Shown: piece after piece, positions 3,541 through 63,825 of the stretch | Position numbering within the stretch: the first letter of the stretch is position 1 | Layout: the number at the start of each line of letters is the position of its first letter | Notes under the pieces: model-generated | Told to the model about the DNA's origin: nothing | Seen by the model: the letters and a program-made list of their open reading frames with translations, nothing else | Database searches by the model: none | Source: Rhizophagus irregularis | Taxonomy: Eukaryota; Glomeromycota; Glomeromycetes; Glomerales; Glomeraceae | Length of the DNA stretch: 64,000 nt | NCBI RefSeq assembly: GCF_026210795.1 | Contig: NC_089453.1 | Coordinates: forward strand, 2,544,501-2,608,500 | Direction of reading: 5' to 3' | Made by a program: the position numbers and the translations under genes

Positions 3541-3913
3541 TTAACTAAGCGAATTCAACCTATACAAAACTGTCAATCAACGCAGCTAAGAACTGGATTA
3601 TTTTATCGACCACCTTATGTGACATATAAAATAATCTTACAAGAAAATATTTTCTGGGAAAATGATTACGAATTTACGATTACATGTTCTCAAAAGCAAG
3701 AAAAGAAATTCACGGAAGAGATTTTGATATGGATGACTTGAAACGCAAATATGTTTAATTTCTAATCAATAATTCAATCTCAAATTAAGTTTGCAACAGC
3801 AGATCCTCCCTTTTCACCTCCATATTCATGATTATCCGGATTCTAATGGGAATGCAAGTTTTTTTTATGGAAACATTGAAAGTAACACAGGCGCAAGCAG
3901 TTTTAATGGATGA
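3541..3913 (+). pseudogene. Decayed copy of the local YHITC-motif family
   Basis: Three reading frames in succession match the small-protein family clustered at 50.8-64 kb. From 3541, one frame reads ...LFYRPPYVTYKI... then YEFTITC, the two Cys-motif units. A frameshift near 3715 leads to FDMDDLKRKYV, matching the DLKR segment of the 51-kb copies. A further shift and a stop lead into FNLKLSLQQQILPFHLHI, which matches the C-terminal FNLELNLKQVLPFYLYI of the 50.8-kb copy. The stops and shifts make it a pseudogene. A CCCTATAA-ended element starts 35 bp downstream. The family is not recognised and function is unknown. Confidence 0.65.
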
Positions 3914-30600: not shown

Positions 30601-33070
30601 TAAAACAATGGTAGATGAATTCATAGAATCATATAGGAACTAATTTCAATCCAGCATTAATGCACCTAATATGTTTTTCACAAACTCAATGCCAACCAAA
30701 AAAAACATGTATATTTTAATAACTGTTCTTTTTGATTTATTAGATGGATCATAAGTTGCCTTAAATATAGACAATGGGAATATTAGTTTTATAAGAAAGA
30801 CTATTACTTAAAAATGGAAATTGACTATAAATATTGTATATTATATAACAAGACATTTTACATTCTTTTAACTCTAGGTAGATTCTGTTTTTCATTTCAA
30901 CTTTCGCAAAGAGAAATTTATTAAGATATATTATAAAAAGGACAAGTAATATTTCTCAGATGTAGGAATACAATTATTCCAAGATACTTTTGAAATTTAT
31001 AGAATACCAAAGCAAAGTATGGCTTAACATCAACTAATGTGAAAGATAATGAATGATATGAATGACAATAGGAATATTATTGTTGAAAAATCATATATAA
31101 AGAATCTTCTTCATTGAAAAAATATAAAGTGAATGAAAATATTTCTTGAAACTTCAAAATCTTCAGCATGATAATAAAGATCTTACTAGCTTTTCCTTTA
31201 TTGACAAAAGATATACTCATTCATGATGGTGGCCCATTATTAAAAATAATGTGAGAAGTGTGAAACATTCAAAATAAATCCTTGATATTTAATTTAGCAT
31301 TTAGCATCATCTCTTTCCTCAGATTTTTTATGAAGGTTGAAAAGAATTTACATTATAAAATTAGTTTAGTTGTATTCAGAATTTTCCATTTATTTAATTA
31401 TTTAGAATCCAAAAGTTACTTCAGAATTTATAAGCAATTTAATACAACTGTTACAAGAGATATTGAAAGATTTAAAAACATGGACAAAAACAAAAAGACG
31501 TAAATCAAAATATATATTTAAATCAATTGAACAGAAAGTAGAAAATAATGATTAAAATGAAGACAGTCATATTTTAATGCATTATAGTATGGTACCAAGA
31601 AAGTGCAATGCATGTAATTCTAAAAGCTTCACAAAAATCAAAAATAGTTCATCTTAAAGGTGGATATTATATACAAGATTAGGGATGTTTATAAAACAAC
31701 AAATTCGACAAAGTGTTAAGGAATTATTAAATGCTTTAAAAACCTTAGTAAAATTATAGATTTGTCATAGAACAAGTTATTAAAGATGAAAACAGTTTAT
31801 TTAAATTATAAAACTTACTATTGCTTGACTATGTTGAAAGTTAAAACATGAAATATAATCAATTTTTAGAATAAATACTATATAATTATCATATTTTGCC
31901 AAAGAAGTATGGTATACTTTTTAATTATTAATAATATTGTAGAAGATGTATGTAATGGTACAATAATAAGGAACTTTGGATCATTATATATTAATATTTG
32001 CTAATAAAACTGTTGTAGATGAAAAAGTAGATGTAAAAGCATAGTAGGATTGAATATGATCAATATATTCAATTGAAATTCCAATATGGATTGGAAATTC
32101 TTGATATGATTTAATAAGAAAAAGATTCCTGCGTCCATACAGCCAAATAATACATTATGTTAGAAATGAGTACCAATAGTTCATTACATTTATAAGTATT
32201 TGACAGAAGTGGATTTCTGGTCATGTTATATATTCTGTGATATCACTGATTTGGGATATAGCTGACATGCACACTAATGTTCAGTATATAACAGACAAAA
32301 ATGATTGAATTCTTGAAACTTGACAAATCAATACTTAAAAAAATAACCCCAAAAATCAATTGGAGTTCAGAACCTCGATCTATAAGTATTTGTTTAATTA
32401 GTCATAAATTCAGAATAAGGAATACCACAGAATATGCATACTTCATGCCTTGCAACTCAGAATAATCATGCCTCAGTCAATAGATGCCTTTAATTTATTG
32501 CATGCAGTTAACTTTTTAAGAATGCTTATTTAGAAATCCATGATAAGAATGAATAGAAGCATTAGATTTATACTGGCAAACAAGAAACATTTTAGAAAAT
32601 CATAGTATAAAAGTAAAAAAAGAAGAATACATTAATATTTCAGTTTTTTCTGAATAAATTTCCTTAAAATTTTGATAGCTATGGAAGCAATAACCAATGC
32701 AATAATATTTTTGTTTCATATTTGCTATGATAATAAAAATTGGACACATTAAAAACTTTACATCAAAGATTTAAAAAATATAAAAAATTGAACAAAAAAA
32801 TGTTTATTAATCAAAAAGCTAAAAAAATATAACATGAAAGAGATAGTATATGAAAAACCAATTAATTATATATCAACTCTAAGGAAAGGCAAACAACATT
32901 AAAACATATATAGTAGTCCTTCACTATACTCCAGGCTAGTAATTATAGTAAATCACTAACTTTATTTTTAAAGAAAATAATGATGTGTTGTATAAATTCA
33001 CTAAGAATTATTCATATTCCTAATGGACTTATGATACTTAGTCAAACATTTTTTGAACAACTGCAACTAG
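27666..33070. other. CpG-depleted relic tract, no intact gene
   Basis: Repeat-derived DNA with stops in all frames. In 28,021-28,980 I count only two CG dinucleotides. Two diverged direct copies of a segment containing 'TTAAGATATATTATAAAA...CAAGTAATAT' lie at about 30,100-30,290 and 30,835-31,010. The open frame at 31,282-31,503 has no recognisable feature. Confidence 0.45.
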
Positions 33071-33595
33071 AAATGCATGCGATATATGGGGTCCAATTTC
33101 TATTGTTCCATGCACAGATTATGACAATAGGATAGATTTATGATATTATTAAATAGAAGTATTAGAATATTATCTGAATTGCAGATGTACAGCATTTTAA
33201 TGATTGTTTAAGGAATTTTCTGATAATCATCTTTAAACTTCAATCCTATTTATATGTAAGACAGAGGGGTATAAATATAATATGATCAGAGATGCATGCG
33301 ATATATGGGGTCCAATTTCCATTGTTTCATGCACAGATCATGGTAATAGGATAGATTATGGTATTATTAAATAGAAGTATTAGAATATTATCTGAACTGC
33401 AGATGTACAGCATTTTAATTATAGTTTAAGGAATTTTATAATAATCATTCAATATATGTAAAACAGAGGAGTATAAATATAACATGATTAGAAATGCATG
33501 CAATATATGGGATCCAATTTCCATTGTTTCGTGCACAGATCATGATCATGAGTTGTGTAGTATTATTAAATAAAATATTAGAATATTAACTGAAA
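33071..33595 (+). repeat. Tandem satellite, 2.5 copies of a ~200-219-bp unit
   Basis: Units start at ATGCATGCGATATATGGGG near 33,073, 33,292 and 33,494 (spacings 219 and 202). Each contains CCAATTTC-ATTGTT-CATGCACAGAT and TAGAAGTATTAGAATATTA. The third unit is partial. The array ends about 70 bp before a small open frame at 33,664, so it could be its 5' flank, but no promoter element is evident. Confidence 0.7.
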
Positions 33596-42311: not shown

Positions 42312-44200
42312 TTACAAGTCATAAGTAGGGATCACCTCATGTAACGCTTTGATAAGTTTTTGATTCGGTTTCAATCTGAAATTCGTTGGAAATTCGGTTC
42401 TACATTCAGGACATTTGTGACCCATAATTGATATACTTCGAGTAAGACAATCCAGGCAAACATTATGAGTACAATTTGTAGTGATAGGTTGCACAACTAA
42501 TCCAAAGCAAACGGGACACTTGAATTCCCGTTCGCTTATAATTTCGATTAATTCCGTGTGGTTTTCAAATTTTGATTCAAGAACTGTAGTCCAGGCTCGT
42601 TGATTATCTTTATCATCTTCAATAAACTTTTTAAGGTTGGCCGAAATTTTGTATTTGTTGTCTTTTTTAGCTTTTTTGGACTTTACACCTTTATCATCAT
42701 CTGAATCAAGTGTACGTTTCTTGGAAACTTCGTCATCATCTCCAACGATCATTTTTATTCCAAGTTCCTTAATTCGTTTCTTTCCCTCCGAAGTCCATGG
42801 AGCTGGTTCTGGATCGTCCCGGCGCATAAGATATCTCCAAACCTTGAATCCTGACGCACCTCTTTCTGGCCAATACTTTACTAACTTATATATTCCATCA
42901 TATCTAATTCCTTCCTCTGGTGCGTATTTTGGATTATGCTTCATTAATTTCGAGGATCGACATACTCTTACTGGCATACTGTTTTTCCAATTCCGCGCTT
43001 CGGCTCCTTTTTTAGCGTTAACTTCAGCATCACAAGTCCTAGCAAGAGCTTCATTTGTTTTAGTCAACTCTTGATCGAATGACTGTACTGCAACTCGTTT
43101 ATTTCCAGTTTTAAGGTCTCGACCACCGGAACCAGTATAGTAAAATTCATCGCCATTATCCGTGTCTTCAGGGTATCCACCGCTGAGTACAATAGATACA
43201 GAGCCAATGCTAGCTTTTCCAGCGATACCAGCAACAGGTGGACGATGGACTCCTGATTCAGAGCAAAATATTCTATATTTCCATAATGAACCAACTGGAA
43301 CACCAGGAATTGGTCCAAAGTAATCAGGTTCTACTATCTCACATTTCTTGGATAGTCCTACGCAAGCCATTCCTCCTCCCCATTTCTTTTTTTGTGTAGC
43401 TGACGGCATCTTTGATTTTTTCGAATTTTCGAGATCTAAACTTTGGCCAGCTAACACAACACCAACATTTTTATGCTTACAATCTTGACAATACCACTCC
43501 TCGTTTGGTAGCTCAGTGATTTGCGGGGATAAGCAATAGAAATGAAAATAATATTGGCACTCGTCACACACTATTGTGTGTTCATCGTCATCCTTTCCGC
43601 CACAAATATTGCACCCACAATGCTTACACTTTTTTTTTTTATTTTCACATAAAGTACAAAAATATTCCTCTTCTTGTTCAAAATTATTCAGATCATCCAT
43701 GACAGATGTTGATTTAGTTTCGATAGGGTGGTTCGAAATCTCGTGTTCTGACACTTGTGAATTAACTTTTTTCTCAGCTTTCACAGGGATATCCACAGAT
43801 AAAACTGCAGATTCGGTTTCACTAGAGGTTTCAATTTTTTGTTTTCTAATGAGTAGGACAACGCTATTGTGCTTAATATTATAATGAAAGAGAGTGTGTC
43901 CATTTTCCAGCTGAACATTTTAATAAATATTTTTATAAAAAAAATTATGTTAGTGTCGGAAAAAGAGTTAAGATACATTAAAATTACAAATACTTGACAG
44001 TTCATACTAAAAAACGCGTAATTACGCGTCCTATTTACCTGTTTACCTCCAAATAAAAGGCGTTGCCTTTCAGGTGGATATTCTTTACAACCGAACTCTT
44101 TAGAAATTATATCACGGAGTTCTTTTATATCGTCCGTGGGTGAACACGTTATTTTGATTTTTTCACTTTTGTCGTTTGGTGCGCTGATAAAAATAAACAT
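42312..44200 (-). CDS. UHRF1-like protein (UBL-PHD-SRA-RING), no tandem Tudor domain
   Basis: A nuclear reader of hemimethylated CpG and E3 ubiquitin ligase by homology; in animals UHRF1 recruits DNMT1. Two exons: 44200-44039 and 43910-42312, joined by a 128-bp GTAAAT...TTCAG intron in phase 0; 586 aa. Ubiquitin-like domain about 1-77, split by the intron (LLFGGKQ | LENGHTLFHYNI). Pre-PHD Cys and PHD about 139-198 (C157, C169, C172, H177, C180, C195, C198). The linker AKM-equivalent SKMPSATQ leads to WGGGMACVG. SRA about 250-438, with pocket residues SGGY300 and Y312-TGSGG and the NKR finger 324-326. C3HC4 RING 519-558, ending LHEVIP. Human UHRF1 (about 790 aa) has a tandem Tudor domain between UBL and PHD; here only about 60 low-complexity residues lie there, so H3K9me3 reading is probably absent. 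Start at the ATG giving a UBL of normal length. Confidence 0.93.
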
Positions 44201-45914
44201 TTTTTTCAAAAGATTATAGAAAGTGTAATAATATTGTAGTACGCAACGCAGAGTAAAAAGAAAGACAATCCACTTTTATCTAGGATTATCCCCCTTAAAT
44301 TATTTGAATATGAGTAATACTATAACTTTGCCTTTCTAGATAACTTTACTCATGATGGATTACTCGAGTAATCATTCTAACCCGAATCATACATACACGT
44401 ACATATAAGGAAGTCAAGTAAGATATGTTAGGTTGATAACCTTGATCCTTCTATCTATATTAGTATGCATGTAAGGAGTTCAAGAGTTAATGCACGTGAT
44501 AGATCACATCTTTTTTTGCAATAAACGCAGTAAAACTCAAAATATAGTTACGTATATCCGTCATTGTATAGCGGTAGGAAAGTAAAAATTTATCATTATA
44601 TCGAGTTTTTAATGATATATCGGTATATCGAATATGAATACTAGACAGGTAACATGATTTTATTCTTTAAAAAAAAAAATAAAAAAATAAACTGAGCCCG
44701 ATCTTGCACTACATCCATTTTATATGCATTACGTGAATACTGGTTTTTTTTTTAAGCCCCCCCCCCCCTTAAACCAAATTCGTTCGACCATGTGAGTCTT
44801 TACCAAATGTCTATCTACATCACAATTATTGAACATCTCAATAATTATAACTTTATTAAAATTTTAAATTTAATTAATTTAATTATTTTCATTCAAGAAA
44901 AAAAGTATTTTAAATATGCTGATTTATATGTAATAAAATTTTAATCACTTTACCAAAATTTTTTATTAGGATAGAACATTTACTACTAGTAGTTAATAAT
45001 TTAGATTAAAAAAAATTGAGGAAGAGAAGCGCTGCATGTTAAAGCAATAAATTAGTCCATTATATGATATTAAAATTATTATATAATATATTTATTTTAA
45101 AAGAAAATAGATTCCATATTATTTCGTGATCTTTACTGCGATGTAATGTACAATCTATGTTTAGTATACTCCTTAGCGGCCAAATAATTTACCAGATTCT
45201 ATGACATTATCCAGCAAATACTTAAAACTTTTATTGATCAAGCTTCTGGATTGGGTAAGCATTATTTCTAAAAAATGTGTGTTTAATTTAAAAATTTTTA
45301 ATGTAATATTGATCTAAATATGTTGTTTCTTATTTTCGTTACTTTTCTCATCATGAACTATATATTTAAAGGAAGATGAAAATATTTAGATACTTTTTCT
45401 GCTAGAGATTAAGTGAGTATATTCTTCTTGTACTATAGGTTTTAACATCTTCATCATCAACTTTTGTTGATGTGATCTCTTTGGATCTGGAAAGGTCGTT
45501 CAAAGCATGAGACTTGTGAAGACGGAATAGGAAAAGGAGAGAATGATGACAACAAGAATGATTCAGATTTAGATCTAATGATTAACAATCCTCGTAGATA
45601 AAATTAGATTTTTATGCGTTGGAAAGTATTTGGTTTAGTCACAGTAAAGTATTGTAAATAATAATTACCTTTGAAGAAGGTAAATGTACATTATAAAATT
45701 CTGAGAATTCTTCAATTAAGATGAATAATTGATTTCTTATTGTAAGTTTTAATATCGTTAATATCGTTATCAATAAATAAAGCTTAATTGACTTTTATTT
45801 TTATTTTTTATTTATTTAAGGATTGATTTTTTTTTTCAAATAAGCAGGCGATATTGTAAATTGTAATAAAGTTAATTTTAGTTTCCAACCTCAATAATAT
45901 GAAACAGAAATGAT
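44201..45914. other. 5' flank of UHRF-like gene and AT-rich spacer
   Basis: No gene. It contains a second copy of the ATATCGGTATATCGAATAT repeat (about 44,598-44,640, compare 5341-5400), a run of 12 C at 44,757-44,768 that is exceptional in this composition, and fragments with no clear frame near 45,450-45,600. Confidence 0.45.
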
Positions 45915-46447
45915 TAGAGTTCCGAATGGGTCAGGTCAGGTCAGGTTATATCAGGTTATCTGTTTGACCTGACCTGAACTGAAACCTGAAAATTTTCAGG
46001 ATTTTTGTTAAAATATCAAAAAAAAATGGTGCAAAACATTTTTTTTGAAAATATTATGATTCACTTTTTTATATTTAAATCGTATAAAAAGGTGAATCGC
46101 AATACCGCAACTAACTTTATATATATAAAATCAATATAAAAAAGTGAATTCCGATACCGCAATTCACTTTTTATATATAAAATCGATATAAAAAAGTGAA
46201 TTCCGATACCGCAATTCACTTTTTATATATAAAATCAATATAAAAAAGTGAATCCCAATATCGCAACTCACTTTTATTATATAAAATCAATATAAAAAGC
46301 GAATTATAATACCATCACTTATATTATATAAAATCATATTTTCAGGTCAACAGGTCATTCAGGTTATATTATTGATGTTACCTGAACTGATAAATTCAGG
46401 TCAACCTGTCAGGTTACCTGAATTTGGTCAACCTGTTTGGAACTCTA
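45915..46447. mobile_element. hAT-type-family element carrying a tandem hairpin array
   Basis: 533 bp with inverted ends TAGAGTTCCGAATGGGTCAG and ...GACC/GGTCAACCTGTTTGGAACTCTA. The outermost nine bases TAGAGTTCC are perfectly inverted. Subterminal regions are built from CAGGTCAGGT and ACCTGAC words. No matching 8-bp flank is found, so the copy may be rearranged. The core holds a 52-bp tandem repeat. Confidence 0.65.
46085..46335. repeat. 52-bp tandem repeat, about five units
   Basis: The GTGAAT word of successive units falls at 46,092, 46,144, 46,196, 46,248 and (as GCGAAT) 46,299, a spacing of 52, 52, 52 and 51. Each unit reads AAAAAGTGAATTCCGATACC then GCAATTCACTTTTTATATA, so AAAGTGAATT and AATTCACTTT form a hairpin in every unit. 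Confidence 0.8.
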
Positions 46448-50600: not shown

Positions 50601-50821
50601 AAAAAGAGAGTTTTACTACTTTCTTTTTTATAATTATAATTATACAACTTATTATTAAAAAAAAAATAAAATAAAATAAAATTTAATTACTAGAAAAGTG
50701 AACCTAATTATTTTTTCTTCTATTAACACATACTTAGAATATTATTGTTGCAAAGAAGTAACTTGACAATTATAATCTCCAACTCCATTTATGTCTTGAT
50801 GAATGACATCATTTCCGGACA
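47641..50821. other. AT-rich spacer
   Basis: No supported gene. A pair of similar segments (TATAGTGCATTTCATTTTTT..AAAGAACGTA and AAAGTGCATTTCGTTATTTT..AAAGAACGTA) lies at about 47,758 and 47,863. The minus-strand frame 49,945-50,151 (68 aa, MTDSEKLNSEKIGMLRILYN...) is moderately protein-like but lacks context, and I leave it uncalled. Confidence 0.4.
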
Positions 50822-51239
50822 TTACATTGTCGATGTTTGTGGCGTATTAATTCCTTCGAGAAAAGTGGTTGCGTTTTCGCCGGAATTTAATCTCATTTGT
50901 CTTTCAGGAATATAGAGATAAAAAGGGAGAACCTGCTTCAAATTTAATTCGAGATTAAATTTTTTATGTGAAGTTAATAATATATTACATTCACGTTTTA
51001 GATCATCTAAAAAATCTATTCCATAAATTTTCTTATTTAATAAGTTTACAATTAAATGATGTGACATTATTTTACATGCAACATGATAACCTGTATTTGG
51101 ATCCAGATAAAAGAACTCGTAATCGTAATCTTCATCATACATTCGTTGTAAAACCATTTCACAAGTTACATGATAAAAATTATCATCATGTGGTGGTTGA
51201 TAAAATAATTTAATATCATTAGAAATTGTGTAGGCTTCT
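50822..51239 (-). CDS. YHITC-motif family member, downstream tandem copy (5' end unclear)
   Basis: Unknown function. From 51,239 the open frame reads LEAYTISNDIKLFYQPPHDD then NFYHVTCEM (first Cys motif), then YDYEFFYLDPNTGYHVACKI (second), LLNKKIYGIDFLDDLKREC, and a C-terminal helix FNLELNLKQVLPFYLYI, ending at 50,822. The first ATG (51,157) would cut off the first motif, which every better-preserved paralogue keeps, so the true start is probably upstream. The frame stays open to about 51,358 without ATG or stop, just below the stop of the neighbouring copy. I tried to join the two by GT-AG splicing but the obvious sites do not keep the frame. Either a cryptic first exon or a decayed start. 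Confidence 0.5.
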
Positions 51240-51347
51240 AAAGTAAATGCAACGCGCGAGTCGCTGATAGGTTGAATAATTTATCAGTGATTTTTGAGCG
51301 TTAATATAAAAATTTTAATGTCTTTTTTAATACAAATTCTTAGAATT

Positions 51348-51791
51348 TCATAAATACGTTACGAACCTTTCAAAAATTCGATCTTGTAAAGAAGGAAGTG
51401 CGTTCTTCAAGCTCATCTCGAGATCTATTTTTTGATCTCGCGTCAATGTATATTTGCGTTTTAGGTCATTTGTATTAAAATCTATACTATAAAATTCTTT
51501 ATTCAATATATCTACAATCAAAGTATTTGATAATAATTTGCATATAACATGATAACTTGCATTTGAATTTTGGTAAAAGAACTCGTAATCATATTCATCT
51601 TCCAAGGAAATGAGATTTTCCAAATTTTGAAATTGTAAAACCATTTTACAAGTTATATGATAAAAATTATTATCATTTGGTTGTAAGTAAAAAAATCTAA
51701 ATTCATTTAACTTCGAAATTTGTTCCAACGATATTTGACTTATTATATCTAAATTGATCGATGTAGCAGTATTCGTGTTGCTTTGAGACAT
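51348..51791 (-). CDS. YHITC-motif family member, upstream tandem copy (147 aa)
   Basis: Unknown function; probably soluble, with no signal peptide or membrane segment. The start MSQSNTNT resembles the MSTSQENN start of the plus-strand paralogues. Residues about 31-49 (FRFFYLQPNDNNFYHITCKM) are the first motif, about 68-87 (YDYEFFYQNSNASYHVICKL) the second. Then come ILNKEFYSID and NDLKRKY, and a predicted helix IDLEMSLKNALPSL ends the protein. The unit matches that of the copy immediately downstream segment for segment (MVLQ, EDEYDYEFFY, LNK, DLKR), so the two are tandem duplicates about 110 bp apart. Conserved Tyr-His-x-x-Cys residues suggest metal binding or a structural core, which is inference. 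Confidence 0.6.
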   Translation of the reverse strand: MSQSNTNTATSINLDIISQISLEQISKLNEFRFFYLQPNDNNFYHITCKMVLQFQNLENLISLEDEYDYEFFYQNSNASYHVICKLLSNTLIVDILNKEFYSIDFNTNDLKRKYTLTRDQKIDLEMSLKNALPSLQDRIFERFVTYL

Positions 51792-53225
51792 TGTACTTTA
51801 TGTTGAAAATAATTAAACATAAAATAAAACTCTGTATAATAATACTGTATTTTTAAAGAATATATACCATATATACTGTATATGTAAAATGACTTTTCGG
51901 TCCACTAAAATCGAATTTTGTCAAAATAAAGTAATGTGAAAATATATATATATAATTTTGATTTTTTAATGTAACGACGGAATTATCTTTCAATATATAT
52001 ATATATATTAAGCGAATTAGTGGAGAAAAGAGAGAAAAAAAAAATTAAAATCCAAAATGAAAAGACGTGGTTATTAATTTGGTTCGTTATATATAATAGT
52101 AATTATTTAATTATTCTAATTATTTAAAAAAAAAAAAATTTTTTTTTATTTATTATGGCAATTTAATTTTAATAGAATAACTTGTACTACTAACTAATTT
52201 CAAAAAGCAATTTTGCGTTTTACTTTTTATTACGTTGTGTATGTACATTTCTTAAAGTTGGACATTAAATGATAAACTGGCATTATAATAAGTCTAGTAA
52301 TAAAATATAATACAGACGATCTTTAAATGATAAAATACAACTAAGAGAATGATTCTGACCGGTCGACGTTATTTGTAAGAGTCGCATTCATTTCATCGAC
52401 AATTACAGACTTTTCACCGACAGTGTCATTTCGCAAACAAATGTTTCACCGACAATCATCTTACCAACATGGGAATTTAGGATTAGAGTTAGGGTTAGGT
52501 AAGGAAATTATAGTATTAAGGTTAGGATAAGTGGATTAGGATTTCAAAACTGTCAGTAAATGATCCTGTCGGGTGAAACCCTGCATTATTTATGTTTACA
52601 ATTAATAAATTACTAATTCAAAAATTTTTTTATCAAACTATACAAGTTATAATTTCATTAGGTAATTTAATTTTTGATTAAACTTATGATATATCATAAA
52701 GGGATGGTTGGCTTTTAAACGCAAAAGTTGGTGCCGGTGCTTTATAATTATTTATGAGTTCATTTTGTCTTATGAATTTAAGCAATTTTGAAAAAAATGT
52801 TGTTAATAATTAACTGAGGATCTTTAAGGATAAAATTATGCGATAGAAATAATTAGATAATAGATGGTGTAATAGGTAATAAATAAAAATAGAACGCAAT
52901 ATAGTAGAAATAGCATTCTTATTAAGATTTTGAAAGAAAACTGTATAACACTAAATAAATTTTTACCTTCGCATAAAATCTAATGCAAATTTAATAACAA
53001 AATCATATTTGGTTGTTCTATATATGTTTCTTCGAATTAAAGTTTTATAAATGATTGATTAGTGTTGAAGGCTTATGTGACGCAAAATGTCACGTGCCTA
53101 TAATTTTTTTGTTAAATTTTGTAGCGGTACCAGATCACAACGATAAGCCATTAAATTAACATCTCTCATAATTTATATAACATAATACAATATACACTGT
53201 AAGTAAAAATTTTTTCTTTGGCATT
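51792..53225. other. AT-rich spacer with telomere-like degenerate block
   Basis: No gene. 52,370-52,590 has GACAATC/TTTCACCGACA words around TTAGAGTTAGGGTTAGGTAA, resembling 1620-1760. (TA)-rich tracts lie near 51,880 and 51,940-52,010. Confidence 0.45.
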
Positions 53226-53233
53226 TTTGAAAT

Positions 53234-53447
53234 TAGTGCTTCGATCCGGATGGGATTTTAACGGATCAATCCGCGGTTTACTATGGTTTGGCAACGGTTT
53301 ATTTGAGTTGGAGCTATAAGTTTGGCCAAAATTAATAAAATTTGTAGAAGAATAATTTTTTTAAATCTGACAAAAATTATAGTTTGACAAAAATAATAGA
53401 AAAATGTTGTGATGCTAATCAACGGATCAATCCGGATCGAAGCACTA
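53234..53447. mobile_element. hAT-type MITE, 8-bp target duplication
   Basis: 214 bp with perfect 18-bp inverted ends TAGTGCTTCGATCCGGAT / ATCCGGATCGAAGCACTA. It is flanked by the 8-bp direct repeat TTTGAAAT (53,226-53,233 and 53,448-53,455). An inner CGGATCAATCCG word is repeated at both sides. No coding capacity; the short open frame across it is chance. Confidence 0.88.
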
Positions 53448-53639
53448 TTTGAAATTACCATTCACGATTACACCACTTGATTCATAAGTTTTATTAATAT
53501 ATAAAGTTAATAAATACATTAATTATCATTCAGAGCTCTTTCAAATTCTGTGGATGAAACAGAATAATCGGATTTATCATAGAAAAAAGTTATTGAATAC
53601 TCACAATATCGAACATTATATTCATTAATTTAGTAAATT

Positions 53640-54620
53640 TGCTAACTTGCTGTTTCTTACTTTCCTGCATTTCTACTATATCTCCCAGATCCTCACAAAA
53701 ATTTCATCCTTTTGTAATGCCATCTTCAAAATCTCCTTCTTTTCTTCCTTATTTCCTCGATCTCTTCAAAATGAAATCAATCATTTCATTGCATTTTCTT
53801 TTTTCTGGTTGAGCTTTGTTCATGATTGACTCCTCTGTATCCTCCGTAGCTGCCTTTTCATCGATTGCCGAGCAATTTCTCCATCCACCTTTTCTCTAAA
53901 AGCATCCTTGTAATTTCCTCCTAATGTTAAATAAAAAAAAAATCAATATAATTATATACACACACAACACCTTAGTGTGAAGTTACATAAATATTTACCA
54001 ATACAGGCAAGGCGCTCCAGCAACCTTTTTCGTTCATAGAAATTCCATGCACCATTTTATGTCATACTTTTTCTTTATAGTTCTTTAATATATTAATTGG
54101 GTTTACTTTGTACTCACCGTGGACCGATTTTTATAAAAAAATTCCAACATTTTTAATTATAAAATTTAATATACTTAGAAGGTCAGAGTTTCAGGAATCA
54201 GGGCTTAGAGGGGATTCTGTCTCTTTGTGAAAGCTTCCACAACCTTTGCAGGAATGATATTTTCATTTTTGATAAGGAACTTATATAGCTCCCTTTTGAT
54301 GACGGTATAGAATCTTTCGACAATTGCTCCCTAGCATTCTCTTAAGAGTGAGAACATTTCGTTTATTAGTGGTGGTAATAACGAACAAGTGTTTTTCTTG
54401 ATTTCCATTTTATTTATCCTTGTTTTTTTGAATCTTGCAGTGTTAAGATGCCACTTCTTTTAACCAACCAGAAATTTTTACATGAGCTGGGGACTTTTTA
54501 CAGAATTCTTCATCATTTTTTACAATATCTTTTAGTGATTTGTATATTGACTCTTTAGATACCCTCAGCGGACAGTTAATATATAATTTGTTAATTGTTG
54601 ATTTGAGAGTATTATCTCAA
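53640..54620 (-). pseudogene. Broken gene of unknown family, minus strand
   Basis: Read downward from 54,620: INCPLRVSKESIYKSLKDIV then KNDEEFCKKSPAHVKISGWL and KEVAS-stop; then NEMFSLLREC-stop-GAIVERFYTVIK then RELYKFLIKNENIIPAKVVE and AFTKRQNPL-stop; then LGGNYKDAFREKVDGEIARQ then SMKRQLRRI, and NKEEKKEILKMALQKDEIF. The pieces are collinear and highly charged, interrupted by stops and shifts. I do not recognise the family; an old retroelement or a host gene are both possible. Confidence 0.45.
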
Positions 54621-54857
54621 CAGTACCAGATTTTTGCAACCACAAACAAATTTTCGTTGAAAAATAATCAAAGATTGTTTACAAAACATGAAAAAATGTG
54701 GTATTAAATGATGCAATTTTATCATTATATTTATATTCATCAATAAATAATTAGACAAATACAAAATACATCATTGGCACAAGGAAAATTTGCACTCCAA
54801 AGGTATAAATGGATGAAATAACTTGATCTGCGCATAATTTATAATATAGTGATTAAT

Positions 54858-56370
54858 TATGGCGCGCCGATGTGGACAGATTGGTATTTTATTAATACCA
54901 ACTCCTGCTATTTAAAATAATACTAGCACTTGTATTTTAAAATTACTGAATTTGCCTAAAATGGCAATTCCTTTTTATATTATTAGACAGATTTGTATTT
55001 GTTTAATACCAAATTTCTCTAATTAAATATTACCAACTCTTGTAATTTTAAAATTAGTAGATCTTTTTTCTTTAATAGACAGATTCATATTTTTTTATTG
55101 CCTCCTTTTTTCATTAGAAGATCTTTTTTCTTTAATAGACAGATTTGTATTTTTTATTATTAGCTCTGACGATCATTTTTATTCGCTAAATCTCACCGCA
55201 GGTGATCCTTACCGCAGGTGATTTTATTCCGGCCAAATTATAATTCCAGCTGGAGTTAATTGTGTAACCTAATAAAAAGTTTTGACTTTTTTAGTAACAA
55301 TGTGGTATAAAAATTGCACCAATGAGTTCGGAAGATGCCCGTTTCTAATCAAATATGCAGTTAAATTTTGTGTAGCCTCACTGAATAAATCACTTTACTT
55401 AAAAAATCTATTTCGTAATGGTCAAAAGTGGTCTATTTGACCTTAAAAGTGGTCAAACTTGACCTTATTGATGGTTAAAAGTGGTCAAATGACCATCAGT
55501 TGCCTTAATTGATGGTCAAAAGTAGTCTATTTGGTGGTCAAATGTAACCATCAGCTACCTTAATTGATGGTTAAAAGTGGTCAAACGTGGCCATCAGCTG
55601 CCTTAATTGATGGTCAAAAGTGGTCAAATATGCCCTCGCCTTTAACTACCAATTATTAGTATAACCAAACAGAAATTTTCGAAAAATTTCTATGTGCTAT
55701 ATGACCACTTTTTAGGGTCAAATAGACCACTTTTGACCATCAATTAAGGTAGCTGATGGTCACGTTTGCCACTTTTAAGGTCAAATAGACCACTTTTGAC
55801 CATTACGAAATAGATTTCTTAAGTAAAGTGATTTATTCAGTGAGGATACACAAAATTTAACTGCATATTTACTTATAAACGGGTATCTTCCGGATCTATT
55901 AGTGCAATATTTATACCACATTGTAACTAAAAAAAATCAAAAACTTTTTTATTAGGTTACACAATTGAATTTGGCTGGAATTATAATTTGACCGGTGAAA
56001 TCACCTGCGGTGAGATTTAGCAGATCTGCTAATGAATAAAAATGATCGTCAGAGCTAATAATAAAAAATATAAATCTGTCTGGTAAAGAAAAAAGATCTG
56101 CTAATAAAAAAAGGGGATAATAAAAAATATAAATCTGTCTATTGAAGAAAAAAAGATCTGCCAATTTTAAAATTACTAGAGTTGGTAATATTTAATTAGA
56201 GAAAGTTCGTAATAAATAAATATGAATCTGTCTAATAATGCAAAAAGAAATTGCCATTTTAGACAAAAATCTGCCACTTGCAGTAATATTAAAATACATG
56301 AGCTGGTATTATTTAAATAGTGGAAGTTGGTATTAAAAAAATACCAATCTGTCCACGTCGGCGCGCCATA
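54858..56370. mobile_element. 1.5-kb fold-back (long inverted-repeat) element
   Basis: The left end is TATGGCGCGCCGATGTGGAC and the right end GTCCACGTCGGCGCGCCATA. The two halves are inverted copies over nearly the whole length: for example CTTAAAAAATCTATTTCGTA at about 55,398 and TACGAAATAGATTTCTTAAG at about 55,803, and CACCGCAGGTGAT at about 55,195 and ATCACCTGCGGTG at about 56,000. ATTAAT flanks each end (54,852-54,857 and 56,371-56,376), a candidate target duplication. Only the centre (about 55,460-55,690) is unpaired, made of short tandem units. No transposase is present. Confidence 0.8.
55463..55640 (+). repeat. GTGGTCAAA-type tandem units in the fold-back centre
   Basis: About four units of 41-55 bp, each starting ATTGATGGT(C/T)AAAAGT and ending CCATCAGCTGCCTTA or similar. 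They sit at the loop side of the fold-back element. Confidence 0.6.
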
Positions 56371-56376
56371 ATTAAT

Positions 56377-58310
56377 TAATCAATTAAATATTACTAGTGT
56401 TAAATTTCCTAATATGTTGATATAATGATTAAACCAGTTAGTACGTGACATAGATTACAAATCAAATGGTTTTGACTTTTGACCCTGTTGGGATTTAAAT
56501 TATTTATGCCCGTTCTGTTTTGCTAAAAATAAATTTGGACTGAACAAGGCCATTGTATAAAACTGTATTGTAATATTTTACTTTGCCAAGGATAGATTTA
56601 TAATAATATAAATAAAAAATCGGGTTTAATATTAAATAAGAATATCGAACCTTCTTAAAATAACCGCAGTATACTCTTTATCACAACTGGATAAATATTT
56701 TCCTGTACTAACATGTCTTAAAGCTATGATGGAATAATCCGAAACAATTTTTTTAAATGTTCTAATTAATTCATCCGTGTAATATAGAATAGAATATATA
56801 TTTATATTATTGGATATTAAAGATATTAAGGAGCTAGGCGTTGTGATTTAAATTATATTCCTTTATATTATTCTTGTGAAAAGTGTACTGGTTACGCATA
56901 ATAAGTAGTAGTGCGCGATATAGAATATAAATTACGTGGATAAGTGAGATTACATAATCATAAAAAAAATTTTTTTCACTAGTTTGTGAAAAGAATGTAT
57001 AGTACCCAACAATCCCGACATTCAAAATTTTCAAGTGTCCACCATATTTCGAATTTTGCTGTAACAAAAAAGAAAGAAATCGTTCATGGGGATCTCATAA
57101 GTAGATTATTTTGATTTATTTTACAATATTGCGTAATTAATACATTCTTTTTTTCTATACCTTAATACATAAAGATGCAATAAAATTGTCAGATTTCAAG
57201 CGTTCATTTGAAATAGGAAAGGGCCACAACAATAATGGAGAACATGGTATAATACCTTATGTGGACCAGATATGAAATACTTTCAGACAATGATTCCTTT
57301 GAAGTTTTCGTATTCCAAACTAATTGTGACCCATTTAAATAGAATGTTGGGAGCACGAATCAGATAACTTCTTTCCCAATTTTATAGTGCGTGATATAAT
57401 AATAGATTTAATACTCAAAGCGGCATTTTTAATTGCGGTTACAAGTTGCAGTTTCAGTCGAAGCGGCTGCTGCTTTGGTCATAGAAAGTCACTAATTGAC
57501 CAAATCTCAAGCAATATAGTGCAAGAGACTTATCCAGCTTTACTTTTGATTTTTGATTGTAGGCAGTTAATGGATCCATTTAATAGAGTTCTAATCCGAG
57601 GATCGATGGATGGACACATTTTGACAATTATACATAGATTTAATTAATTTAAGTCAAGATTTTTTTTGAGATATCTTCGGATTCTACTCCAATATAGTAA
57701 TATTAAAATCCGGTTCAATTATAAAATGGAGAAGAAATTCAACTCGGATCGAAAATCCATCCGATCGGATGAAAAATTCAATCCGAAACGAATTTCTCTT
57801 TTTTTTTTATTATTAACAACACTCTTAAATTTACTATATTGTGTATTGAGATATGATCTTAGTGTATCTGAAAAAATCCTTTACCTTTATTGATTAAATC
57901 CACATGCAAATTGCCAAAATATTCCCATCCGTCGTGGTGATGTCACCATTTTGAAACGCTAGGTATAGTAAAAGAGGTACAAACACGTGACTATCATTAC
58001 TATTTATAGTTAACCATTAAATACAAATTGTAGACCAAATTAAGCTTGTGCTCCTATTTTGATTCAAATATTTAAATTATTTTTTTAAAGAAAAATTCAT
58101 AATAAATCTGCAACGCTCTTTATAGTTACTAACTTTTTGAGCAATGATATTCTAATTTTTTTTTGTTTGTCTGTTTTTTTTACTTGCATCAAGTATTATG
58201 CATATTATGAGCGAAGAAAATGCAGTCACGCGACTGCAAAAATATTATTCATTATTTTTTATATATTTGCCACTTTTTGATCATAGTTTATTAAAAAAAA
58301 AAAAAACTCA
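56377..58310. other. AT-rich spacer
   Basis: No gene supported. The plus-strand frame at 57,387-57,647 is open for 86 codons but unrecognised. 57,700-57,790 has several GGATCGAAAATCCATCCGAT-like inverted words, possibly a worn element. Confidence 0.4.
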
Positions 58311-58928
58311 ATGAGTACTTCTCAAGAAAACAATATTTTACCGTCATCTCCATTGCCTTACGAGAACTTGTCTCCCATGGCTTCTGCAACTAGCTCACGT
58401 AATAATAATATACAGCAGCCAATAGCTCCAAGTCTAGCTTTCTTTTACAATCCACCAAGTTTTCTCATAAGTTACCACATTACTTGCGAAGAAATACCAG
58501 TGTCCTTTGAACTGGTATATCAATTAACAAATGATGCCGATGACCGAGCTTATAATTATGTTCTACCTGATAGCTATGTATTTTATCACAGTCAATTTAA
58601 TACGAAAAAAATTTATCGAGTAACTTGTGAATTAGCTTCGTCCCAATTTTTAAATAAAAGATTTTATAATATGGAATATAACCAGCAGAGTAATCAACAA
58701 CATCAACAACAACAAGAAATTTCTCTAACACACTTTAAATTTCACTTGAAGCAATTTTTAACTAATTACTTGGCGCATGGAAATATGGTGCATGATAATT
58801 TTAGTGATGAAACCATGGATGGTCCACCTTCTTTTCGAAATACTACTAATGGCGATTATACTCAAGATTATGAGAATAATCCTTCGTTATTCAACCCAAA
58901 CATCGATAATATTCAACAAGACGTTTAA
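58311..58928 (+). CDS. YHITC-motif family member (205 aa), intact
   Basis: Family not recognised. It starts MSTSQENN after a long A-run. Residues about 1-42 are Ser/Pro/Asn-rich. About 43-63 LAFFYNPPSFLISYHITCEE is motif 1. VSFELVYQLTNDADD links to about 92-113 YVFYHSQFNTKKIYRVTCEL, motif 2, then SSQFLNKRFYNMEY, a Gln/His run (QQSNQQHQQQQ), a predicted helix FKFHLKQFLTNYL, and an Asn-rich acidic tail. No signal peptide, no membrane segment and no introns. It is very similar to the 62,154 copy, 3.8 kb away in the same orientation, and converges on the truncated copy at 59,174. Open along its full length, with differences among paralogues clustering outside the motifs, which favours a real gene. 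Molecular role unknown. Confidence 0.7.
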   Translation: MSTSQENNILPSSPLPYENLSPMASATSSRNNNIQQPIAPSLAFFYNPPSFLISYHITCEEIPVSFELVYQLTNDADDRAYNYVLPDSYVFYHSQFNTKKIYRVTCELASSQFLNKRFYNMEYNQQSNQQHQQQQEISLTHFKFHLKQFLTNYLAHGNMVHDNFSDETMDGPPSFRNTTNGDYTQDYENNPSLFNPNIDNIQQDV

Positions 58929-58944
58929 GATTTTTTTATTAGGA

Positions 58945-58945
<1 letters not shown>

Positions 58946-58978
<33 letters not shown>

Positions 58979-58980
58979 TA
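58946..58980 (+). repeat. (ATT)n microsatellite
   Basis: About ten ATT units just after the stop codon of the preceding family gene. Confidence 0.85.
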
Positions 58981-59173
58981 TAAGAAAAATCTTTCGATTT
59001 ATAGTGAGTCTAAAGATATTGCTTACTAAAAGATTTCTCAATGGATTTATTAGACGAAAGAATCATATCAACTTTCATTATGCAATAATTATAGCTATAA
59101 AATAAAATTTAATTAGTGCCGTTTTCTCTCTTTTTTTAATCTAAGTTTATCTCAAAGCAAGTTAGAAATAAAA

Positions 59174-59422
59174 TTATGGTATATTGTAAATAAGAATAAA
59201 ATTCATAGTAATTTTTTTTCGATTTAAATTACATGAATTTTTATCATTTATATTATAATAAAATGTATGATCAGAAGAAAGTGAATCAATATTTTCACAA
59301 GTAATATGGTAAATTTGATAATCGTTTGGTGGATTGTAAAAGAAAGTCATTCTAAAGTTATTATCTGAATAATTGTTGGTCAGTTGAGTTAGTTGAGTAC
59401 AACCTCGCACGTAAACAGTCAT
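59174..59422 (-). CDS. YHITC-motif family member, truncated (82 aa)
   Basis: Starts MTVYVRGC. Residues about 24-42 (FRMTFFYNPPNDYQIYHITC) are a well-kept first motif. The second begins (HTFYYNINDKNS) but loses its Y-H-[IV]-T part, leaving only S-C before an unrelated tail NLNRKKITMNFILIYNIP. The FLNK and C-terminal helix segments are missing, so the gene is either a short family variant or a truncated pseudogene. It converges on the 58,311-58,928 gene, 245 bp away. Confidence 0.45.
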   Translation of the reverse strand: MTVYVRGCTQLTQLTNNYSDNNFRMTFFYNPPNDYQIYHITCENIDSLSSDHTFYYNINDKNSCNLNRKKITMNFILIYNIP

Positions 59423-62153
59423 TTTATAAAGATAAAGGTCATAAGATTAAATTTACTGCTGGAGAAATTTTTTTTTTTTTAACCAAAAAGAAAATTATTA
59501 GTAGACATATTTATACTAAAATGATGTATTATTTAGCTGATCAATATATATACAAATTGTGAAACATCTTAAAATAGACTTTTTATAATGGCCAATGTGT
59601 AATCCCCTGATCGGCACCATTTACACGATTATAAATTTTATATGTATTTATTTATCCATTCCTAAGGAGATTTTGTAGTATTGATTATACTATAATAGAC
59701 GGATTTGAAAATTTGAGTAATTCAGAAAGATTTGCATTTCCAAATGAGAAAACTTTCTTTTAATTTATTCGTAATCTCAATTCTCAATATTATTTTTTAA
59801 GTAATAGTAATAGTTCCGAAGCTTTTAAAATTTAATCATTTTTTAAAATCTTTTAAATGAAAAAAAAAAACCAAGTGAAAGAAAATAGGATTCAACAATA
59901 AAATACACTATATTTGTACTCATGATATACTATAAAACACTATTGTGTAAATGGCAGGGGATAAATCCTGGCTAATTGGAATAGTAAAATGATCGGCCTA
60001 TCGGCCGATCATTTATCCGATTCTAGTAAAATTTTACTTATGCTGGATATAAATAATTACCTAGCGGTGCGGATTGCGCCCAGATTAGAAATATTACAAA
60101 ACTTTCACAGTAAGCTTGTCTTGTCAGACAACCTATATATAAGGTATGAGAGTGCTTATGCTGAAACAATCTAAAAATTAAAAAAATAAATAAATAAAAA
60201 CACAACTAGCTATATGCTGTACTTCTGTAACTGAAAATGTTTTGAAGGACAAAATCACCAATATAAATATCATTCTTTTACCCCTTAAAAAAATACATAC
60301 AGGACATACAACGTTTTATTATGTAACAAAAATTTTACGATTGTTTATTTGAACGAGATTGAATTTATTATCCTTCTTTCTAATACAGATAACGATTTAA
60401 TATAAATCTATAGAGTACCATATGTTAAATACTTATCGTCAATTTATTTTTAGGCTACTAATGCCAAGTTATTACATACGTAAATAAATTATCGATACAA
60501 TTATAATTAGTGCACCGCAGCCTTTAAATTATGCTATAATTTTAAAATTAACGTTCTAGTTTACATTATGAAATTTATTTTGATATTTCATTGCACTTTG
60601 TTTTTTAAAACTTTTAAATCAGGAGAGGAAAAAGTACAAATTTGAGACGAGCTAAAATAGTTGCAAAGAGATGACCGATCTTTGTTTTGAAATATTGTAT
60701 GATGATTTGAAAGAACCATTAATGGAAAAATTTTATTTCATTATAAAAAATTTATTTAAAAACTAACAATAACGAATAATACGTTGATATTATAAATAAA
60801 TAATTAATTATACTCTAGTTAAATATGAGTTTTTAACCTCAATATATCATCGTAAGCCACAATGAATTATTATTTTTTGAATAATATAAATAGTAGGTTA
60901 ACAAAGGTAAATGAAAAAACGATTTGAAATATGACGTTTATTCGTGTAATTTTAGTTAAAATTTCTACGTATCCATTGAACGTATAGTTAGCTTATTTCG
61001 CTGTAAAACAGTTCCTTTTGTACCAATTTTTTTTTCCAACGAAGATTTTATTTACTATTTATTTATTTTTTAAGTCTTAATTCAGTAAAATTTACTCGAG
61101 TAGAATAAAATTACAATCTTTGAAGTCAATTTATTGAATCTGTAATTTGTCATTAGTTGTTCCTGAGCGTCAAATAAACGAACCAATTATATTGGCGAAA
61201 TTCCACGATAACAATGGCGGGTAATAAATTTAAAAATTATAAATAATTTGCAGAGTCTGATGCGAGCATGAAAATAAATAGTTTTATTTATTTGACTTAG
61301 TATAAATTCAATGATAACGGATATGTTAGAAATTAGATTATTAAACGAAAAATTTAACTGATATGTTTTCTAGTATATTTTTTTTTATCTCTAAAAATTT
61401 TTCATTCTCTTAATACAAGCAAACATAATGATTTCACATTGCGCTGCAAAAACTATTGATATTCGTGAATAATATGATAGCCATTTACGTCTAAACACCA
61501 TCCATGAAAATATCAAATTCTTATAGTAAGCTTCTAATAATGGAAATTCAGGTAATACACAATTTAGAGCTTTCCTTAACGGGTAATGTAACTAGAATAC
61601 TCTAGGATTTATCCGATTAGCCTATATATCCAGATTTTTATTGTATATGCCGTATCAATAATAATTCAATCATGTGACCATACTGGAGGTGATATCACCT
61701 GCGGTTATAATTAGCAATTTTCTATATATATAGTATATAAATATTTATTAAAATATTTCTTATAATCCTTTTCACTTTATAAAATTTATTGTCATTTTTT
61801 TTATTAAAATAAGCGAATAAATTATTTATTATTTTTTAATAAAAAAATAATTTTTACAATGTATTAAATGGAAGAAATTGAGTAATTGAATAGAAATATT
61901 ATTTTCTATCAATGTATCAACTATTTTTAGATTAGTAGTACAAAGTCACGTTACCGAAAATTTTGTAGATATTAAGTTTAACCCAAACTTCTCAGGTATT
62001 AGGTGCGTCAATTTTATAAGTATTTCACATAGTCAAATGAGGTGCGTCAAATCGGTGAAATAAATATGAGATAACGCAAATCCGTTATCCATACAAACAT
62101 TTTCTCTCAAACATTTTTTTTGTTTTTTTTTTTTCAAAAAAAAGTAATACTCA
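59423..62153. other. AT-rich spacer with inverted repeats
   Basis: No gene. It holds inverted matches at 59,598-59,631 (ATCCCCTG..CACCATTTACAC) and 59,944-59,963 (GTGTAAATGGCAGGGGAT), a perfect 12-bp-arm hairpin at 59,987-60,014, a GGTGATATCACC palindrome at 61,688-61,699, and the repeat shared with 41.9 kb at 61,995-62,060. Confidence 0.45.
59987..60014. repeat. Perfect 12-bp inverted repeat, 4-nt loop
   Basis: AAATGATCGGCC - TATC - GGCCGATCATTT. It stands out by its GGCC core in AT-rich DNA. No nearby gene explains it. Confidence 0.7.
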
Positions 62154-62711
62154 ATGAGTACTTCTCAAGAAAACAATATTCAACCGCCTTACGAGAACTT
62201 GTCTTCTATGACTTCTGCAACTAGTCAATGTAATAATAATATTCAGCCAATAATTCCAACTTTCTTTTACAATCCGCCAGGTTTTCTCGTAAATTATCAT
62301 ATTACTTGTGAAGAAGTACCAGTGTCCTTTGAACTTGTATATCAATTAACAAATGATACCGATGACAACGACCAAACTTATAATTTATATGTTCAGCCTA
62401 AAAGTTTTGCATTTTATCACAGTCAAATTAATACGAAAAAAATTTATCGAGTAATTTGTGAATTAGCTTCATCCCAATTTTTAAATAAAAGATTTTATAA
62501 TATTGACTACAACCAGCAGAGTAATCAACATCAACAACAAGAAATTCCTCCACTACACTTTAAATTCCACTTGAAGCAATTTTTAACTAATTACTTGGCA
62601 CCTAAAGAAATTTATGAACAGAATTTGCATGAAAATATGATACAAGACAATATGGATGGTTCTCCTTCTTTTCGAAATGCTAGTGGCGATTATACTCAAA
62701 ATTATCAATGA
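62154..62711 (+). CDS. YHITC-motif family member (185 aa), C-terminus frameshifted
   Basis: Close paralogue of the 58,311 gene: the same MSTSQENN start, motif 1 TFFYNPPGFLVNYHITCEEV (about 39-58), VSFELVYQLTND, motif 2 FAFYHSQINTKKIYRVICEL (about 90-109), SSQFLNKRFYNIDY, a shortened Gln/His run, helix FKFHLKQFLTNYL, and SGDYTQNYQ-stop. Relative to its sister, about 13 bases are inserted just before the stop. The old C-terminus survives in another frame to 62,775 (DFENSPALFNLNNDNIQQGI). The loss affects only the Asn-rich tail and leaves both motifs intact, so the protein may still work. Start chosen by match to the paralogue. Function unknown. Confidence 0.68.
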   Translation: MSTSQENNIQPPYENLSSMTSATSQCNNNIQPIIPTFFYNPPGFLVNYHITCEEVPVSFELVYQLTNDTDDNDQTYNLYVQPKSFAFYHSQINTKKIYRVICELASSQFLNKRFYNIDYNQQSNQHQQQEIPPLHFKFHLKQFLTNYLAPKEIYEQNLHENMIQDNMDGSPSFRNASGDYTQNYQ

Positions 62712-62712
62712 A

Positions 62713-62775
62713 GATTTCGAGAATAGTCCGGCATTATTCAACCTCAACAACGATAATATACAACAAGGTATCTAA
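62713..62775 (+). pseudogene. Out-of-frame former C-terminus of the preceding gene
   Basis: Reads DFENSPALFNLNNDNIQQGI-stop and aligns with the in-frame tail of the 58-kb paralogue (ENNPSLFNPNIDNIQQDV). It shows the ancestral reading frame extended about 20 codons further. Confidence 0.75.
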
Positions 62776-62897
62776 GGTTTTCCATTAGGAATTTAGTATT
62801 ATTTTTTTTTTTAGAAAATGTATTAGTTAACTAGTTTAGTATTTTTGTGTATGAATATAAATTATTTATAATATACGATATATATTGTTTATGAAGT

Positions 62898-63116
62898 TTA
62901 TAATATTGAATAAATATTAAATTTTTGACCTAAATATGAAAGCGAATGGAATTTCTTGTTTTCAACATCATGAATTATTTTATTCAAAAATTGAACGAGT
63001 AATGAATGTGAAATGAAAATACTAGTTATCTGATAAGTTACAGTTATTCTATCAATAAAAGTATATAAATGGAATTTTTTTTTTATTGCCATGAATTCTT
63101 CAAAAATGATTTTCAA
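62898..63116 (-). pseudogene. Decayed YHITC-motif family fragment
   Basis: The minus-strand frame contains YTFIDRITVTYQITSIFISH then SLLVQFLNKIIHDVE. This aligns with the second motif plus LNK segment of the family (Y-H-V-T-C ... SNTLIVDILNKEFYSID). The invariant Cys is Ser and the first motif is missing, so it is a fragment or pseudogene, even though it is open. Confidence 0.5.
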
Positions 63117-63315
63117 AATTTACCACATCAACTTATAGATTCTTATTGAACCAACTAATGTGATAATTTAATGAAGTTATAATGTTAACCAAATTCGTAT
63201 AATTTTCTGCGCGAAGATGTACGGTGACACGAGTATTTCAGCCCTCGGTATTAGAATACTCCAGAGTTGATTATGCTGTATGGTTACACATAATTATGTA
63301 ATGTATTGGCATCAT
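63117..63315. other. Short spacer
   Basis: Nothing recognisable. Confidence 0.5.
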
Positions 63316-63531
63316 GGCGGATTTATGAAATACCCCAAAATTTGTCCGTCATGTCAAACTAAATAAATATTTGACAGTATTTTACTATTTAAGTCCCAAA
63401 TTTATTAATAGTGAATAGTCAAAAATGAGCTCTAAAAAAATTTTTTTGTACCCCAAATCTTGCGTCTAACAAATTTTTCCAGTGTTAAAGGCGCGTCATT
63501 ATTTGACATTTTTTTTAAGGATAAATCCGCC
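63316..63531. mobile_element. Probable MITE with GGCGGATTTAT ends
   Basis: 216 bp bounded by GGCGGATTTAT and its inverse ATAAATCCGCC. Inner inverted words GTCATGTCAAA.. and ..TTTGACATT support a fold-back design. No clear target duplication. The CGCGGATTTATGCGTCAATT segment at about 41,945-41,970 has a similar end, suggesting a related family. Confidence 0.55.
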
Positions 63532-63699
63532 GCAATGGAAATTATGCTCAGTTTTTGTATTTATTGTATGCATTATTGTATATTTTAATATATACATTTT
63601 TTAGTATATAATTTACATCAAAAAAATTAATTTACATATTTTGAAGGAGGCAATTTTTTGTAAACTTATAGAAAATTCCTGCATACAGCTATTAATAAT

Positions 63700-63825
63700 A
63701 AATTTTGAAAGTCACCTTACCTCTTTATATATATTTCGGAGTCCTGTTCAATTCTTGAATAAAAAAATTTATGATATCAAACTTAGAAAGTACGTAAGAA
63801 GATGAAAAACAACAAGAAGAATAGT
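63700..63825 (+). pseudogene. Decayed YHITC-motif family fragment at window edge
   Basis: SPVQFLNKKIYDIKLRKYVR with a following AACAAGAAG-rich stretch matches the SSQFLNKRFYNMEYNQQ segment of the intact copies. The upstream KVTLPL.. may be what is left of Y-R-V-T-C. No start codon or first motif is seen before it. Confidence 0.5.

Follow-up and report, generated by a model that had tools for sequence, protein, structure and literature searches.

Orphan genes without known domains have been described in Rhizophagus irregularis, some of them at high copy number, together with expanded families that are occasionally arranged in tandem (PMC8647823). For the Glomeromycotina, a burst of genes restricted to the lineage has been reported (PMC10234402). 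Here, we examine a cluster of related open reading frames (ORFs) in a 64,000-base stretch of R. irregularis contig NC_089453.1, hereafter the window, which has 26.5% G+C according to its base counts and whose 49-64 kb end was translated to obtain these ORFs. With moderate confidence, we interpret these sequences as a small, apparently intronless orphan gene family, putatively protein-coding and composed of two subfamilies, which is clustered and turns over by duplication, truncation, and decay. This degree of confidence applies to the family and to the way it evolves; it does not extend to the mechanism by which its products may act.

The family is defined by a domain of 102-115 residues common to four ORFs, designated here by their positions in kb (51.8, 51.2, 58.3, and 62.2), all of which contain motif 1 (F-F-Y...Y-H-[IV]-T-C-[EK]), motif 2 (F-[FY]...Y-[HR]-V-x-C-[EK]), an LNK segment, and a C-terminal helix-like segment. 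We assign the copies to two subfamilies, a DLKR type (subfamily A, copies 51.8 and 51.2) and a type with a Gln/His stretch (subfamily B, copies 58.3 and 62.2). Copy 51.8 (51351..51791, minus strand) is a single-exon ORF of 147 amino acids that begins with an ATG, encodes both motifs, the LNK segment, and the helix-like C-terminal segment, and has a short tail. Copy 51.2 (50825..51280, minus strand) is an open frame of 152 codons with the full domain and no in-frame ATG before it. Copy 58.3 (58311..58928, plus strand) is an intact single-exon ORF of 205 amino acids, and copy 62.2 (62154..62711, plus strand) is a single-exon ORF of 185 amino acids whose last ~20 residues are frame-shifted relative to 58.3. 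Only three copies combine an ATG of their own with both motifs. An earlier, sequence-only reading of this DNA (the initial annotation) had proposed five open copies with one architecture; this description holds for the four copies above and fails for the fifth, copy 59.4, which contains the first part of the domain only.

The shared domain was evaluated with a hidden Markov model (HMM) built from the four full copies, and the null was provided by the top score from each of 60 windows that had been shuffled locally. The four copies score 132.6-173.9 bits versus a shuffled-window best of 13.7; since they are also the training set of the HMM, these values show only that chance gives no such scores. 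Training-independent evidence comes from a frameshift-tolerant alignment, in which queries derived from single copies reach the other subfamily at scores of 81-103, compared with maxima of 58-72, depending on the query, in 40 shuffled windows. Identity amounts to 54% over the core of 51.8 and 51.2, 76% between 58.3 and 62.2, and 30-34% between 51.8 and subfamily B. The chance expectation of an open frame of the observed length is 0.001 for the 205 codons of copy 58.3 and 0.005 for the 185 codons of copy 62.2; by length alone, 51.8 and 51.2 are less striking (0.09 and 0.06, respectively). Within the 64 kb, we count four full-domain copies, one truncated copy, one confirmed relic, one probable relic, and one weaker relic.

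The truncated copy, 59.4 (59177..59422, minus strand), retains the first domain part in 82 codons counted from an ATG. The full model, built without this copy, assigns it 24.6 bits, a score reached in 0 of 60 shuffles, and the four other copies used as queries score 75-87, each with 0 of 150 shuffles as high in local tests. Its motif 2 is not recognizable (11.1 bits, 20 of 60 shuffles as high), and an ORF of 82 codons is of chance length in this DNA.

A more distant relic, already suspected at 3.6 kb, is borne out by frameshift-tolerant alignment with the 51.2 query and by blastn, although it is invisible to the six-frame HMM (7.8 bits, 47 of 60 shuffles as high). The sequence (3598..3831, plus strand) resembles a frameshifted copy of subfamily A, and a collinear 3' block follows at 4054-4108. 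A score of 96 is obtained here with the 51.2 query, compared with a maximum of 64 in 40 shuffled windows, and the 51.8 query scores 69, under its shuffled-window maximum of 72. In a local test with 150 shuffles of the 3.0-4.3 kb segment, the number of shuffles scoring as high was 0 for the 51.2 query, 0 for 51.8, 28 for 58.3, 38 for 62.2, and 7 for 59.4. At the nucleotide level, blastn aligns 3706-3831 with copy 51.2 at 71.5% over 130 columns (E=2e-11), and the collinear block at 4054-4108 adds 55 bp (E=4e-7). We therefore regard this piece as a real subfamily A relic, confirmed at the DNA level. A 65-bp repeat, present at 3981-4045 and 14107-14171 (80%, E=3e-9), has its first copy between the two blocks of the relic, a position that suggests an insertion may have helped to break the 3.6 kb copy. 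Directly upstream of the relic, at 3180-3350, lies a GC-richer stretch with repeated words similar to gacccgggt.

The two fragments proposed in the last kilobases of the window fared unequally. The one at 63.0 kb (62901..63119, minus strand), comprising the second motif and the LNK segment, is a probable relic: the full model gives 15.2 bits (0 of 60 shuffles as high) and the motif-2 model 14.6 bits (2 of 60), and its DNA matches the fragment at 63.7 kb (E=7e-6) and copy 62.2 (E=0.001); its frameshift-tolerant scores of 51 and 55 fall inside the window-wide shuffled range. The fragment at 63.7 kb (63605..63802, plus strand), recognized by its LNK segment (VQFLNKKIYDI), appears to be a weaker relic, with 13.5 bits in the motif-2 model (3 of 60) and 6.8 bits in the full model, which 58 of 60 shuffles equal. 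The two fragments share 30 bp at 90% identity across the LNK segment, the match with E=7e-6 mentioned above. When both strands of the 62.75-64.0 kb segment were tested together, 4 (51.2 query), 1 (51.8), 19 (58.3), 3 (62.2), and 106 (59.4) of 150 shuffles scored as high. Unrelated AT-rich blastn matches in this DNA also reach E ~0.003, so matches at such a level prove little. A fragment at 9911-9949 (minus strand) is an 11-residue match to motif 2 in a short frame (motif-2 model, 14.1 bits, 2 of 60 shuffles as high; motif-1 model, 11.0 bits, 7 of 60); 18 of its bases are identical to the motif 2 region of 51.8 (E=0.003). About equal to the 63.7 kb fragment, it is either a tiny relic or a product of chance and was left out of the copy count. 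A stretch at 36.7 kb was rejected because its score of 61 with the 51.8 query lies inside the shuffled range (median 59).

The two subfamily A copies are arranged in tandem, head to tail, with no ATG between the stop codon of 51.8 and the domain of 51.2 and none in frame upstream of that domain. Copy 51.2 is accordingly either 5'-truncated or a second module spliced to 51.8. The second option would make the pair a single two-domain gene, in which the 51.8 stop would be lost with an intron of 94 or 103 bp and the frames fused, and we regard it as possible, if doubtful. The missing ATGs are what such a gene would show, and two candidate donors near the end of 51.8, GTTCGT and GTATTT, are in phase with a candidate acceptor, CTATCAG, as read by eye. 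However, four donors from other genes of the window all read GTAA[AG][TA], which neither candidate matches, and there is a further frame change between the tail of 51.2 and the conserved block downstream of it. This block belongs to the 3' stretch of copy 51.2 (50744..50824, minus strand), which lies in a different reading frame and of which positions 50744-50798 have a conserved counterpart in the relic at 3.6 kb (55 bp at 78%, E=4e-7); the stretch may represent a former C-terminal tail or the 3' untranslated region of 51.2.

For the subfamily B pair, homology covers 58274-58967 and 62117-62813, which for 58.3 means ~37 bp before the ATG and 39 bp past the stop codon. A 13-bp insertion in 62.2 puts its final ~20 residues in another frame than in 58.3. 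Had more of the flanks been duplicated, they would still be expected to align at the synonymous divergence of this pair (dS 0.25); the duplicated piece was therefore presumably gene-sized, as would result from an ectopic duplication of short extent or from mRNA-templated copying. This raises the question of whether the copies are transposable-element cargo or products of mRNA-templated (retro)duplication, an explanation that agrees with the intronless structure of 58.3 and 62.2, with homology that barely exceeds the gene, and with the presence of a 678-column inverted repeat at 54.8-56.4 kb between copies. We nevertheless consider it quite unlikely: Pfam rows up to E=1 for the five ORFs of the family include no transposon domain, and no transposase, integrase, or reverse transcriptase domain was found in these ORFs or in ten other scanned ORFs of the window. 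In addition, no poly(A) tract is seen at the 3' end of the 58.3/62.2 block, a search for target-site duplications flanking the two copies showed that, AT-rich runs aside, the edges of the block have no 7- to 10-mer in common, and the subfamily A copies follow one another in tandem, head to tail.

Comparisons with domain collections agree with the earlier statement that no known domain can be assigned. Searches of Pfam-A with five proteins and NCBIfam with four gave nothing above the curated cut-offs, PHROGs (four proteins) returned no row better than E=0.021, and the PDB sequences, searched with 51.8, 58.3, and a five-copy profile, gave nothing convincing. The weak NCBIfam and PHROGs rows, which differ from copy to copy and either fall far short of the cut-off or have E values of 0.021 or worse, were dismissed. 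A literature search by titles and abstract starts revealed no work recognizable as dealing with this family. One named candidate is the RRM-like domain of the UPF3 (Smg4) family, of which ours would be a divergent form. For copy 51.8 alone, Pfam PF03467 is matched at E=0.0021 (18.6 bits, cut-off 24), and the UPF3 chains 1uw4 (E=0.0049) and 7nwu (E=0.0066) appear in the PDB search. No corresponding row exists for the other four proteins in Pfam, for 58.3 in the PDB, or for the five-copy profile. With a score below cut-off in one of five proteins that is gone with the profile, we rejected this identity, which we consider extremely improbable.

Within the domain, motifs 1 and 2 had been read as an internal duplication. 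A Smith-Waterman comparison of the first and second domain parts, with 300 shuffles of the second part, upholds this for 51.8 (score 53; shuffle mean 24.1, sd 4.4; 0 of 300 as high) and 51.2 (score 41; 0 of 300), leaves it weak for 58.3 (score 31; 11 of 300), and gives it no support in 62.2 (score 24; 103 of 300). The duplication is thus clear in subfamily A; in subfamily B it is weak or escapes detection. Around this core, the proteins have a polar N-terminal tail rich in Ser, Gln, and Asn, a linker of the Gln/His or DLKR type, and an end that looks helical.

Selection was assessed by the ratio of nonsynonymous to synonymous divergence (dN/dS, or omega) from a pairwise codon model. For the older pair, 51.8 and 51.2, omega is 0.17 (2dlnL 21.1, p=4e-6), with dS at 2.5 and near saturation. 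Cross-subfamily pairs, two of the four possible being tested, also yield omega <1 (p<2e-5); their dS is saturated (>10), so omega is not quoted as a size. For the younger pair, 58.3 and 62.2, eight gaps of the DNA alignment fall within the 58.3 coding region; the lengths of seven are divisible by three (12, 9, 6, and 3 in one row; 6, 3, and 12 in the other), and the remaining one is 13. By hand calculation, this proportion has a probability of ~0.003 if lengths are random. Together, the omega values and the in-frame indels support selection on the protein sequence, without proof for the present day. Furthermore, the cluster brings together paralogues of different ages (dS 0.25 and 2.5) with truncated and frameshifted copies. 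Intact, truncated, and frameshifted copies on both strands fit birth-and-death evolution, as the initial annotation had suggested.

Several observations weigh against our interpretation. The dN/dS of 58.3 versus 62.2, singled out earlier as an informative comparison, is below 1 (0.54), yet not significantly so (2dlnL 3.67, p=0.055; dS 0.25); a second alignment gives 0.55 (p=0.063), and none of three sub-regions is significant alone. The codon model demonstrates purifying selection for the old pair, as past constraint, and does not reach significance for the young one. Copy 51.2 is without a start codon and the tail of 62.2 is shifted, which may leave 51.8 and 58.3 as the only fully intact copies. 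Searches of viral contigs, prokaryote genomes (in one scan, with N-terminal tail patterns only), and plasmids (62.2 query) found no relative; these collections are not meant to hold fungi, and the null result says nothing about fungi. Structure prediction is also discordant: AlphaFold model 1, from five sequences, offers only a suggestion of a strand-strand-helix-strand-strand-helix arrangement (mean predicted local distance difference test, pLDDT, 43.4) and is contradicted by the all-helical model 2 (five sequences, 51.8 query; mean pLDDT 41.2). Finally, an intracellular location of the proteins would follow from hydropathy only: the maximal 19-residue Kyte-Doolittle mean is 0.19 to 1.25 in five proteins, with no strongly hydrophobic stretch.

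Some of these points would also be expected if the whole cluster were now neutral, consisting of once-functional genes whose open frames persist through their youth. Besides the young-pair omega, which is not significantly <1, the broken state of 59.4 and of the 3.6, 63.0, and 63.7 kb relics, the missing ATG of 51.2, and the frameshifted tail of 62.2 speak for neutrality. We find it unlikely, given that the young pair has eight coding indels of which seven have lengths divisible by three, that open frames of 205 and 185 codons occur in DNA of 26.5% GC, and that omega is 0.17 in the older pair, although this last value is a record of past constraint only.

Under the preferred interpretation of a family of putatively protein-coding genes that turns over by birth and death, a tentative picture of the products can be proposed. 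The proteins would be intracellular, with a polar and probably disordered N-terminal tail preceding a compact domain built from two related units, one for each motif pattern. Each unit might form a strand-turn-strand followed by a helix, after which come the variable linker and the C-terminal helix. We speculate that the domain and terminal helix could form an adaptor for proteins or nucleic acids, with the conserved aromatic-His-Cys unit making the contact, and that the binding face may be kept while the linker and tails diversify. This adaptor mechanism is a guess, possible at best. A more far-reaching idea, which we judge unlikely, is that the family represents a new domain that arose by tandem duplication of a short unit, carries an invariant Tyr-His-x-Thr-Cys signature in its first half, belongs to a single fungal lineage, and serves in an intracellular repertoire for recognition or regulation that diversifies and includes forms with two domains, such as 51.8-51.2.

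Other features of the window provide its genomic context. The inverted repeat lying between the copies (54835-56393) has arms at 54835-55486 and 55725-56393 with 83.6% identity across 678 columns; between the arms, at 55534-55628, a 43-bp unit occurs 2.2 times. The structure is possibly a foldback element. A UHRF1-like gene with ubiquitin-like, PHD, SRA, and RING domains is located at 42312-44275 (minus strand); genes of this kind act as DNA-methylation readers. Together with an MFS transporter at 20.4-21.3 kb, this gene points to an ordinary eukaryotic chromosome, and the introns seen in genes of the window likewise indicate a eukaryote. An apparent two-exon gene, delineated by eye at 22515-23415, encodes a small hydrophobic protein, perhaps a multi-pass membrane protein, and neither exon matches Pfam at E<=0.01. 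Local direct repeats of 111-328 bp with 80-84% identity are found at 33069-33594 and 46059-46339.

Compared with known systems, the domain shows a weak local likeness to the UPF3/Smg4 RRM-like domain (PF03467), which is limited to copy 51.8, below cut-off, and lost with a profile. Similarly, the YbjN family fold (PDB 5fr7, 5frk, and 6vu7) accounts for several of the top ten Foldseek rows for model 1, with probabilities up to 0.96. This likeness is not usable, as no row reaches E<=0.001, TM-scores are 0.21-0.33, and the model has a pLDDT of 43; with both AlphaFold models below 45 and in conflict, these rows carry no weight. The section on lineage-restricted genes in the Glomeromycotina study (PMC10234402) does not describe this domain, and our family would be of the same kind as the genes reported there if it is restricted to that lineage. 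By itself, the family leaves the known picture unchanged. With its defined signature for the domain, its two subfamilies, and its relics that differ in age, it makes one orphan family searchable and testable. In lacking a known domain and occurring in several copies, it resembles the Class B orphan genes of R. irregularis, which are characterized as having no known domain and both low and high copy numbers (PMC8647823), and it is probably an ordinary orphan multicopy family.

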